Program-made: the position numbers and the translations under genes
Notes under the pieces: model-generated
Databases searched by the model: none
What the model saw: the letters and a program-made list of their open reading frames with translations, nothing else
Told to the model about the DNA's origin: nothing
Shown: positions 16,474 through 21,706 of the stretch, piece by piece
How the letters are laid out: each line of letters starts with the position of its first letter
Numbering within the stretch: position 1 is the first letter of the stretch
Source of the DNA: Vibrio litoralis DSM 17657
GTDB lineage: Bacteria > Pseudomonadota > Gammaproteobacteria > Enterobacterales > Vibrionaceae
NCBI RefSeq assembly: GCF_000426765.1
Contig: NZ_KE384568.1
Span: forward strand, 1 to 64,000
DNA: 64,000 bases
Reading direction: 5' to 3'

Positions 16474-16506
16474 AAAAAAGGCTCACAACCTAAGCTGTGA
16501 GCCTTA
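16474..16506 (-). terminator. Terminator of the groESL operon (beyond the intron)
   Basis: The perfect 10-bp stem AAGGCTCACA / TGTGAGCCTT is followed on the minus strand by TTTTTTATT. After removal of the intron it would lie about 60 nt past the groEL stop, the normal place for the operon terminator. This shows the intron entered between stop codon and terminator. Confidence 0.88.
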
Positions 16507-16606
16507 ATATCTTTCTCTATATATGTTTCGCTATGAGAGATTTAGATAGCAAGTAATCCGCAGATGTCGGGTAGCAGTAGCACATTACTGTGCTACCGCC
16601 CCCTAA

Positions 16607-16640
16607 GAACCGTACGTGCGAGTTTCCCTGCATACGGCTC
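16607..16640 (-). ncRNA. Group II intron domain V catalytic hairpin
   Basis: A 34-nt hairpin beginning GAGCCGTATG and ending CGTACGGTTC when read on the minus strand, with the AGC catalytic triad near its 5' end and a GAAA apical loop. It is followed 5 nt later by domain VI. This is the most conserved part of the ribozyme and it is intact. Confidence 0.93.
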
Positions 16641-16686
16641 AAGTCTTTATAAACTGACACCTAGATGTCAGCCAGCAATTAGTAAT

Positions 16687-16914
16687 TCAACCTTTCGGAG
16701 GGAAAGGATCATTACCGTAAGAATCACGTTCACGAATTGTTCCATCTTTACGATGAACAAAGGCTTCTGATTCTTGTTTTTTGGCAATATCTCTAGCGGC
16801 TTTAGCAGCCTCTGCTTGAGTTTCATGCCGGCTTGTAAAACGCTCATTGCCTGCGCCTTTTACTCCCCAGCCTCCATCGGGATGTGGTACCGCATGTTGA
16901 TTTTTACTAGTCAT
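16687..16914 (-). CDS. DUF2188-family small protein carried inside the intron
   Basis: A 75-residue protein with the DUF2188 pattern: HAVPHPDGGWGVKGAG, a TSRHETQAEAAKAARDIA helix, then a C-terminal HRKDGTIRERDSYGNDPFPP. The family's function is unknown to me. A Shine-Dalgarno (AAGGAA) sits 10 nt before the ATG. The gene lies between the end of the maturase ORF and domain V, so it is within intron domain IV, on the same strand as the maturase. That is not a usual component of group II introns, and it looks like captured cargo under coding constraint. Confidence 0.85.
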   Translation of the reverse strand: MTSKNQHAVPHPDGGWGVKGAGNERFTSRHETQAEAAKAARDIAKKQESEAFVHRKDGTIRERDSYGNDPFPPKG

Positions 16915-17012
16915 ATATAGGGTTCCTTATAGTTACCTAAAACACCTGTATATAACATTAGTACTGATTATTTACACATGCAAAATATAGTATTATTAAT
17001 TTTCATTTAACA

Positions 17013-18680
17013 CTATATAGAACTACTTCCACTATGGATTTGCCTATGACAATTAACGTGTAACATCATCAAATTCGATATATTGTCATTTCCACCATCC
17101 ACTCTTCTAATTATGTGGTGTACATCCCACTCATCTTCCGAAGTAAATTCTTGCTTACAAACTGTACATTTGTAATCTTGGCTTTCAACAATTTTCCAAA
17201 GCTTCATGTTACCTGCTATCGATTTTTTCAATCGTTGCATCTTCAAACGTTCAAAATATTGTTCATCTTCAGGTAAGTAACAATTCGCTAAAGATCGAAT
17301 TTTCACATGCTTATCGATTTTTACTTTCGATGCACTCAACAACCGATAGTATCCATCTTCTTTGTTCCCTCTTGGTGCACTAAATACCCAATTCCTATCT
17401 CCTACCGTCTTAAAATATTTATTTTTAATCCAGCGTTTACGGCGATTTGCATGAATACGTCGGCACCAACGCCAAAGCATTTTCCAGATTCTATAATCTA
17501 GATACTTAAACATCTCACTAGCACAGATCCAACGATGGTAGTTACACCAACCTCTGATCATAGGATTAAGCTTCGCAATAATTGCGGATGCTGGCACCGT
17601 TTTGTGACTATTTAGATAGTCTTGTATCCCCTTCAAGAATGTCTTTACGTTTTTATTCGACGGTTTGATTAACATCTTCCCGTTATATTTCCGTACATTC
17701 TGCCCAAGAAAGTCAAACCCTTCATTTATATGCGTTATCAATGTCTTTTCTTTTGAAAGTTCCAGCCCTCGCTCAGCCATAAAGGCTTTAACAATGGGGA
17801 GGACTTCTTTCTCCAGTAATTCTTTTGATATACCAGTAATTATAAAATCATCGGCATAGCGCACATAATTGACCTTAGTTTTGTAACTGGCTTTAGTATT
17901 CTTTTTCCCAAAGTGAGATTCGAGTACATTTTCCAGTCCATCTAAGGCCATGTTGGCAAGTACAGGAGAAATAATTCCACCTTGTGGTGTGCCTGCCTCT
18001 GTTAAGTTAAAACTTCCAGATTCTATGAATCCAGTTTTTAGCCATTTTTTGAGAATTGTTTTATCCATTGGAATATTATCAATTAACCAATCATGACTAA
18101 TGAAATCAAAACACCCTTTGATATCCCCTTCCAGTACCCATTGAGCACTCGCTTTTCGACTGAGGTTCACGAAACATTGTTCGATTGCATCAGCACATGA
18201 GCGATGAGGACGAAAGCCATAGCTATTTCGATCCGCTAATGTTTCCGAAACAGGTTCTAAAGCTAGCAAGTATAGTGCTTGCATTGCTCTATCACGCATA
18301 GTCGGTATACCTAACGGTCTCTTCTTACCATTTGCTTTCGGTATATAAATACGTCTTAACGGTTTAGGTTTATACCCTTTTCGCTTTAACGTTTTTATAG
18401 CTTCCCATTTCAAAAGTGGTGAGCTCCAAATTACTTTGTCTACACCTGGTGTCTTCTTTCCACGGTTTTCAGTTACCCTTCTAACCGCAATAGCTTTAGC
18501 TGAAAATGAGTGAACAAGCATTCGTTGAAGCTGTTTCACTTGTCTCCAATTTTTGTTCCTAGTTGCTTTTGCAATACGTACTTGTAGTCTCTTCACTTGA
18601 CCATAACATTGCTCCCAATTAATGGAATGCCATTGTGTAATCTCGTGTGAGAATGCAGGTACATTTTTAGTGGTACTCAT
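17013..18680 (-). CDS. ltrA: Group II intron-encoded protein (RT/maturase/HNH endonuclease)
   Basis: The 555-residue protein supports splicing and retrohoming. The RT fingers-palm region contains PTMRDRAMQALYLLALEP, the AGTPQGGIISPVLANMALD block and the catalytic YADD (about 275-278). The maturase X domain is around NPMIRGWCNYHR. The C-terminal HNH endonuclease shows CTVCKQEF, DVHHI and NLMMLHVNCHRQIHS. I start at the ATG at 18680 (MSTTKNVP), preceded by GAGG; the frame extends to 18719 without support. No frameshift or missing active-site residue is visible, so it is probably functional. Confidence 0.95.
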   Translation of the reverse strand: MSTTKNVPAFSHEITQWHSINWEQCYGQVKRLQVRIAKATRNKNWRQVKQLQRMLVHSFSAKAIAVRRVTENRGKKTPGVDKVIWSSPLLKWEAIKTLKRKGYKPKPLRRIYIPKANGKKRPLGIPTMRDRAMQALYLLALEPVSETLADRNSYGFRPHRSCADAIEQCFVNLSRKASAQWVLEGDIKGCFDFISHDWLIDNIPMDKTILKKWLKTGFIESGSFNLTEAGTPQGGIISPVLANMALDGLENVLESHFGKKNTKASYKTKVNYVRYADDFIITGISKELLEKEVLPIVKAFMAERGLELSKEKTLITHINEGFDFLGQNVRKYNGKMLIKPSNKNVKTFLKGIQDYLNSHKTVPASAIIAKLNPMIRGWCNYHRWICASEMFKYLDYRIWKMLWRWCRRIHANRRKRWIKNKYFKTVGDRNWVFSAPRGNKEDGYYRLLSASKVKIDKHVKIRSLANCYLPEDEQYFERLKMQRLKKSIAGNMKLWKIVESQDYKCTVCKQEFTSEDEWDVHHIIRRVDGGNDNISNLMMLHVNCHRQIHSGSSSI

Positions 18681-19709
18681 CTTGCTATCCTCAGGTTCGC
18701 ACCGCCAAATAGATAGCAAAGATCTACCTCGTTAGAGGTGAGTTCTTCACCTCTATAAGGTAGGTACATAAACAGGGCAAGCCTGCGCGTCAACTTTACA
18801 AGTCTTCTTGCAATTAAAGACCAGATGAAAGTCTGCACTCTTTCGAGTTGAGGCAAAGTCTGAACCTCTATCTAAGCCATTACAGCCTAGCATTCGCTTT
18901 ATCCATCCTCCTCTACCCGCTAACCTAACAGGATTCCTTACGGTTTCCCTGCCCAAGGGCAGATTATCGGGCTTACCAAGTTCCTATGTTTACACAAACA
19001 ATGAATTAGGTTCTACCTATTCTCCGGTGGTACAACAGTAGCGCATCCCCAGATGTAAAAAGGATGACCTGACCACTTACCTTTTGGTTAGAGCGTAACA
19101 ATGACATTTCGCTCATCGCGGCTGACGGAGTTTAATAGTAGTTCACATACGTTAACCATATCATTAAGCCTAGCCTCTCAACTTCTTGTCACTAGAAGTA
19201 TCCATTACAAAACTCACGTTAAATAATGCCTTTCAGGGAGTACATTGCTGGGAAGCTTCGAACAATTCCGTTACCAGAACCGCACTATCCCTAGGCTACA
19301 ATTTGCTACAAAATTGGTTTCATCACCTTTCGGTGTGAAACAATGCAAACATAAGCTTTAGTCACACTGACTGTAAAAAAAATAATCCTCTTGTCGTTGA
19401 GATGCACTGAGACATCTTCAATTAAGAAGCCTTATTTCATGTTTTTGTCTTAAGACAAAGTGTCCTGTGGGATAGTGAAATAACCACTATTACAGGTATG
19501 TGAAAGATAATAATACTGACTGACATTAGTCAGTCAGTATTTTCTCTTTTGGGAACGAATTTAATCGTTTAGGTTAGGTGTCCTGAACACTCGTAATGAG
19601 CTACCATCATTTCATTCAGGGGATGGTTTAACGGCTACTCCTTAATGGATTCTCCATTAATCTTAGTTAAATCAATAACTAAGAGACAGTCAGCGCGACA
19701 CTTGTCGCA

Positions 19710-21706
<1,997 letters not shown>

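Follow-up and report, generated by a model that had tools for sequence, protein, structure and literature searches.

The window, a stretch of 64,000 nt from Vibrio litoralis DSM 17657 (contig NZ_KE384568.1, positions 1 to 64,000), contains a groEL gene whose stop codon is split by a long insertion encoding two gene-like open reading frames (Table 1). By each sequence test that we made, the insertion is a group II intron: the conserved RNA segments D1-D4 and DV-DVI (RF02012 and RF00029) and a YADD-bearing reverse transcriptase with a maturase domain are all present, and the domain V core, GAGCCG..., is read at 16640-16607. The single full-length match to the intron within its own genome is the intron itself.

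Table 1. Features of the interrupted groEL locus in the window, and copies of a ~280-nt element in other introns of the same lineage
Feature	Coordinates	Strand	Evidence
groEL 5' exon, ends ...ATGATGTA	19711..21353	-	ORF and sequence
Complete group II intron, 3145 nt, GTGCGAC...CCCGAC	16566..19710	-	Sequence, Rfam, length, junctions
Group II intron D1-D4 segment (RF02012)	19174..19317	-	Rfam, E 6e-18
Intron-encoded reverse transcriptase/maturase (RVT_N, RVT_1, GIIM, HNH; YADD present)	17013..18719	-	ORF and domain matches
Variable cargo cassette, 354 nt, running from just past the last conserved maturase His codon up to the 3' arm of domain IV	16680..17033	-	Boundary comparison
AAGGAA, Shine-Dalgarno-like, 8 nt upstream of the cargo gene	16923..16928	-	Sequence
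DUF2188 / PDC-S16 cargo gene, 75 aa, ATG start, complete	16687..16914	-	ORF, Pfam, PADLOC
Domain IV 3' arm: ATTGCTGG, variable hairpin, TTATAAAGACTT	16641..16679	-	Sequence and boundary comparison
Domains V and VI (RF00029)	16566..16642	-	Rfam, E 4.9e-10
3' exon start ATCTGCGG; splicing would restore the TAA stop	16558..16565	-	Sequence, junction survey
~280-nt element copies	L052:6733-6997, L065:6746-7043, L073:6731-7010
~280-nt element copies	L075:6731-7008, L064:6750-7012, L079:7038-7317

The intron's first bases directly abut the end of the groEL exon, and AT follows its last base. Splicing would join TA to A and yield the stop codon TAA, while in the unspliced transcript the first G of the intron would yield TAG. 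Consequently, GroEL is predicted to end correctly with or without splicing. Judged from its sequence, the window intron has the TA|A insertion position of a lineage that targets the groEL stop codon.

A DUF2188 gene inside domain IV

A sequence-only reading of this DNA had described a complete 75-codon gene, with its own Shine-Dalgarno sequence and a DUF2188 signature, between the maturase stop and domain V. Both observations hold. The open reading frame, with its ATG start and ribosome-binding motif, lies 98 nt past the maturase stop and 46 nt ahead of the domain V core, and its product matches Pfam DUF2188 (PF09954) across the whole profile (E 2.2e-23, 82.6 bits, cut-off 22). Six other introns of the lineage contain homologues that are 57-65% identical over almost their full length, and the closest pair of intron copies (Photobacterium angustum and V. 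rotiferianus) has a pS of 0.73 and a pN of 0.09; the window's reading frame is therefore more than a chance one. DUF2188 is thus confirmed as intron cargo, intact, located in domain IV, conserved at the protein level and shared with other introns of the lineage. The same reading had named as its refutation that groEL-site relatives lack the gene and that flanking repeats mark a separate insertion. Most groEL-site relatives do lack it, but no direct repeats were found across 16560-17060, and a separate recent insertion of DUF2188 was set aside on that ground.

The predicted structure of the protein has a mean pLDDT of 83.7. Foldseek returned no match at E up to 0.001, and no sequence relative was found in the PDB up to E 1. 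Comparison with AcrIF5- and YegP-like folds was weak (best Z 5.0 for 7f45 and 3.8 for 2k8e), and the AcrIF5, YegP and HicB-like matches were too weak to build on.

A lineage of introns at the groEL stop codon

We collected related introns by a maturase search of 296 genomes of the family, which gave 22 same-clade loci (the window's included) and a second copy in one genome (G276); the same-clade maturases from family genomes other than the window's own are 79-83% identical. GTDB contigs yielded 34 loci when scanned, although 14 of these repeat places already found in the family genomes, and samples of 394 genomes of the order and 369 of the class added three more introns of the lineage (two in G619 and one in G623) together with more distant ones. 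After merging duplicate loci (L098 repeats a G619 copy) and dropping incomplete ones, the lineage set contains 41 introns. Left out of the counts were L066, where domain V was not found in the 402 nt after the maturase, and the archaeal loci L082-L084, with 36-47% identity and alignments that end short of the maturase C-terminus. The lineage spans Vibrio, Photobacterium, Salinivibrio, Parashewanella, Marinomonas, Alcanivorax, Halomonas, Nitrincola, Reinekea, Spongiibacter, a Glaciecola metagenome-assembled genome (MAG) and others.

The groEL site is occupied in 38 of the 41 introns, corresponding to 36 genes, two of which bear a tandem pair. The remaining three are on a MAG contig without flanks, in a partial Parashewanella locus and at an ectopic site in Marinomonas flavescens. 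Among 37 distinct 5' junctions, 32 read ATGATGTA|GTGCGAC and two read ATGATGTA|GCGCGAC; the other three read ATGATGTGATGCGAC and have an in-frame TGA stop instead. The next base after the intron is A in 36 of the 39 introns that have a next base.

Several loci show further arrangements. The ectopic M. flavescens intron (L070:3914) bears cargo, occupies a site with the same sequence as the end of groEL (GGGCGGCATGATGTA) and lies downstream of genes that, judged by eye, look like ParD and ParE. Tandem complete introns stand behind one groEL in L108 (G276, with different cargo) and in L109 (G619, both empty), and intron-end/intron-start junctions are likewise present in L072 and L096. The stretch from the intron's 5' end to the maturase varies among lineage members; in Halomonas socia (L067:1543-5001) the 5' part is ~2.4 kb longer than in its relatives and contains extra reading frames, which we take to resemble an IS66-type transposon.

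A slot between the maturase stop and domain V

Between the maturase stop and domain V lie 205-707 nt in 35 of the 41 lineage introns and 15-61 nt in the other six, whereas this distance varies from -2 to 54 nt in 29 introns of sister lineages. These sister introns have maturases that are 49-58% identical, and no groEL junction or groEL gene was seen up to ~1.5 kb upstream of their maturases. A slot longer than 100 nt is accordingly found in 35/41 lineage introns and 0/29 sister introns (Fisher's exact p 8e-14, uncorrected for relatedness). The sister set is a sample, composed of eight of many family rows with ~50% identity, 20 loci from the order and class genomes, and L080, and its members are not independent, as L105/L107, L095/L100, L093/L099 and L103/L106 are pairs from the same genome.

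The slot has recognizable edges. Its left edge follows the final conserved His codon of the maturase's HNH domain, a codon that was located in all 41 introns. On the right, it is bounded by a GTTGCTGG-like motif (located in 34/41 introns, allowing up to 2 mismatches of 8), a hairpin and a CTTATAAAGGCTT-like end ahead of domain V. Divergence starts at the conserved His codon in two close pairs, the two G276 copies and G007/P. halotolerans. These are the only two of ten pairs that align in register at the left edge, and the boundaries are defined by them together with the located His codon and motif.

What the slots carry

DUF2188 is present in seven of the 41 introns: those of the window, V. 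penaeicida (where the slot has a second reading frame), V. rotiferianus, P. angustum, V. mexicanus, Reinekea and a Pseudomonadales MAG. DUF1508 occurs in four introns in all, as the sole content of three slots and once together with DUF2188 (Reinekea). Six slots contain reading frames related to lambda ea8.5, above the Pfam cut-off in all five that were scanned, and a membrane-like protein is common to two. Eight other contents are one-offs among the 35 loaded slots, including matches below the Pfam cut-off to NarE in one slot and MarR in another. Four slots (the first copy in L108, L069, L053 and L111) have antisense micro-ORFs encoding hydrophobic peptides of 25-26 aa, directly followed by GC-rich hairpins, an arrangement that we take to resemble type I toxin genes. 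The V. splendidus slot is the one unexplained content among those loaded, and six introns have empty slots.

A conserved ~280-nt element lacking a long sense reading frame stands alone in four slots and beside DUF2188 in two. It starts with GGAGG and a short TTG reading frame (mostly MTKLL...), followed by conserved non-coding blocks. Rfam gave no match within the element at four of its six loci (L052, L065, L073 and L079), and a plasmid search with one member as the query gave no match. An exact 17-mer of the element is shared by 29 viral contigs, but neither of two other conserved blocks (14 bases, matched with up to 2 mismatches) lies within 350 nt of it in any of these contigs, and a stricter exact pattern was found in none of 274 class genomes.

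Cargo proteins were chosen by eye from lists of reading frames and, micro-peptides apart, the named ones lie on the intron's sense strand. The longest antisense frame slightly exceeds that of DUF2188 in V. mexicanus and the NAT4 MAG, and the two strands tie in Halomonas LBP4, with a longest frame of 53 aa. The labels of the six DUF2188 members outside the window, of G007 (DUF1508) and of P. halotolerans (ea8.5) were assigned by alignment rather than by Pfam.

Cargo is exchanged between closely related introns

The sequence-only reading had proposed that the DUF2188 gene moves wherever the intron moves. That proposal is not supported: most of the lineage carries something else or nothing in the slot, and near-identical introns differ in cargo. 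Pairs of introns with maturases that are 94.7-99.1% identical have unlike cargo: P. rosenbergii (ADP-ribosyltransferase-like) and G133 (empty), P. angustum (DUF2188) and G115 (ea8.5), V. penaeicida (DUF2188) and Salinivibrio, G007 (DUF1508) and P. halotolerans (ea8.5), H. socia and Halomonas LBP4, two Marinomonas, and two Pseudomonadales MAGs. Behind one groEL in G276, two complete introns lie head to tail; their maturases are 99.1% identical, and one contains an antisense micro-ORF, the other ea8.5. As a counter-case, some close pairs keep their content, and both Alcanivorax introns have the non-coding element. Across the maturase tree, 28 changes of cargo type are needed for the 41 introns and 17 hand-made types, where the minimum possible is 16. 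The best reading of these comparisons is that slot content turns over at a far higher rate than the intron evolves.

On a tree of 82 rows and 75 columns, from which identical, short and stop-containing rows were excluded, the seven intron copies of DUF2188 are scattered and need five state changes. The reading had suggested a check of congruence between intron and DUF2188 phylogenies; constraining the seven copies to one clade was rejected (p-AU 0.017, from 75 columns and a tree with many unresolved forks). A fixed partnership between intron and DUF2188 was rejected on the basis of this distribution and these trees.

DUF2188 and DUF1508 are conserved at the protein level. Three Vibrionaceae pairs of DUF1508 have dN/dS values of 0.03-0.10, and ea8.5 pairs, where estimable, have values of 0.19-0.42; synonymous sites are saturated in most other cargo pairs.

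Transcription signals

A promoter scan of 16500-19900 found 7 sites against 8.5 expected, with no promoter-like site on the intron strand between the maturase stop and the cargo start, so the cargo is probably read from intron transcripts. Terminator-like hairpins in the same interval numbered 9 against 1.8 expected. On the groEL strand, strong terminator-like inverted repeats lie at 19712-19691, the very start of the intron, and at 19541-19512. Because of these hairpins in the intron's 5' part, simple co-transcription of the cargo with groEL is doubtful. They could end groEL transcripts early, so that attenuation, or a promoter internal to the intron, is possible.

A probable anti-phage role of DUF2188

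Relatives of the window's DUF2188 protein were found in 477-484 plasmid records (342 from Klebsiella), in 28 phage records and in 107 viral contigs, of which the best 80 were kept as viral loci. The sequence-only reading had left the family without a function, and the family can now be placed better, as a candidate for defence, by a PADLOC match and by its frequent defence-like plasmid neighbours. The window's protein matches PDC-S16, a candidate defence family of PADLOC, over positions 1-75 of 75 (E 3e-38). In the consulted part of the source paper, PDC families are described as named by guilt-by-embedding, with validation pending for most (PMC12988326).

We compared eight plasmid neighbourhoods, picked for diversity rather than randomly. 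In six of the eight, an XRE/HTH-type regulator, in some cases together with ImmA/IrrE, is divergently encoded upstream of DUF2188; a TIR-domain gene follows DUF2188 in three; and patatin and nucleotidyltransferase genes, a pair that we read as CBASS-like, adjoin it in two. The Rhizobium johnstonii neighbourhood encodes an S8 peptidase together with an ATP-binding protein, a Klebsiella plasmid has a DUF2384-RES pair ~700 nt beyond DUF2188, and the Salipiger plasmid has no evident effector. An anti-phage role would be the most likely function of DUF2188, and the window intron's slot is probably loaded with an immune gene.

Of 16 cargo proteins submitted to PADLOC, DUF2188 alone gave a strong match, and this result does not establish 'defence' as a general label for the slot. 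One membrane cargo matched tm_HEPN weakly (E 0.0015), and its homologue in the Glaciecola MAG had no PADLOC match.

Discussion

We propose that the window intron is a member of a lineage of group II introns that is specialized for the stop codon of groEL and has a swappable cargo slot in domain IV, here occupied by DUF2188, and we assign this reading a probability of somewhat under 60%. The slot, 3' of the maturase gene, would accept one or two short genes or elements, which may be transcribed within the intron and translated from their own ribosome-binding sites. The cargo would benefit the host or the element, most likely in conflict with phages, and thereby favour the intron's persistence. 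Lineage introns may reach groEL by retrohoming and could stack in tandem, and cargo would be exchanged when introns recombine or when the reverse transcriptase switches templates. The expression, splicing and mobility of the window intron, and the anti-phage activity of its cargo, are proposed here as parts of this model.

The alternative that survives best, though we consider it unlikely, is passive capture, in which an insert-tolerant domain IV collects mostly neutral DNA as short mRNAs are caught by template switching. The diverse and unrelated slot contents and the six empty slots are consistent with it, as is the finding, in the consulted part of a study of engineered introns, that inserts are best placed in the DIVb loop (PMC3898094). 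However, neutral capture does not readily account for the protein-level conservation of DUF2188 and DUF1508, for the recurrence of the same families (DUF2188 in seven introns, ea8.5-like genes in six, DUF1508 in four), or for the loading of 35/41 slots against none of the 29 in sister introns.

We also give a low probability to selfish modules for addiction or competition (toxin, antitoxin or immunity genes), which would protect the intron against being lost and not the host against phages. The hydrophobic antisense peptides and GC-rich hairpins in four introns point this way, as does the weak NarE-like ADP-ribosyltransferase match, below the Pfam cut-off, in one slot; DUF2188, DUF1508 and the ea8.5-like genes, however, are mostly single genes with no evident partner. 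The four slots with micro-ORFs and the four with the element alone count against our main reading, since selfish or neutral content fits them too. Finally, it is highly improbable that DUF2188 is a helper of the intron, such as an RNA-binding cofactor for splicing or retrohoming: it does sit beside the maturase and recurs in seven lineage introns, but the other 34 do without it, its family is also found on plasmids, in phages and in viral contigs, and a tblastn search with the maturase (E up to 1e-10) found no match in 80 viral, 14 Vibrionaceae and 4 plasmid or phage DUF2188 loci.

The proposed groEL-targeting lineage with a swappable slot resembles several known systems. Bacterial group II introns are usually described with no gene other than that of their own maturase. 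In our searches of an open-access library, no title or abstract opening reported natural, exchangeable cargo in group II introns, which is not a claim of absence from print. The insertion site is like that of the Azotobacter groEL introns and the 'specialized lineages' of Michel et al. (2007); in the consulted part of a further paper, an Azotobacter group II intron lies at or close to the groEL stop codon, a large insertion at the intron's 5' extremity is reported for an Azotobacter-type subset, and cargo is not mentioned (PMC4465626). The loci that we compared include no Azotobacter intron. In engineered targetrons, domain IV has delivered foreign genes, including a phage-resistance gene, as far as the consulted part of that study goes (PMC3898094); in contrast, the cargo of this lineage is natural, recurrent and exchanged during evolution. 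The window's DUF2188 matches the PDC-S16 and Pfam DUF2188 profiles at full length, but its carrier is a group II intron, not a plasmid, phage or immune-type operon. The slot works like an integron's gene cassettes, with swappable small genes at a fixed site, whereas the carrier is a self-splicing retroelement and the window's two gene-like reading frames are the maturase and DUF2188.

More tentatively, and with appreciably less confidence than in the slot itself, the lineage might constitute a natural retro-cassette system: a ribozyme-borne retroelement with a safe harbour at the stop codon of an essential stress gene, which would spread interchangeable immune or addiction cassettes, use its own reverse transcriptase to acquire and swap them at the RNA level, and stack them as introns in tandem behind groEL.

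If the proposed cargo slot is real, the known carriers of accessory genes, such as integrons, islands and prophages, would be joined by retroelements. A conserved and harmless site in a stress operon would serve as a dedicated slot with fast turnover, and would offer a new hunting ground for small immune genes. The introns of this lineage may also provide natural templates for cargo-bearing targetrons.
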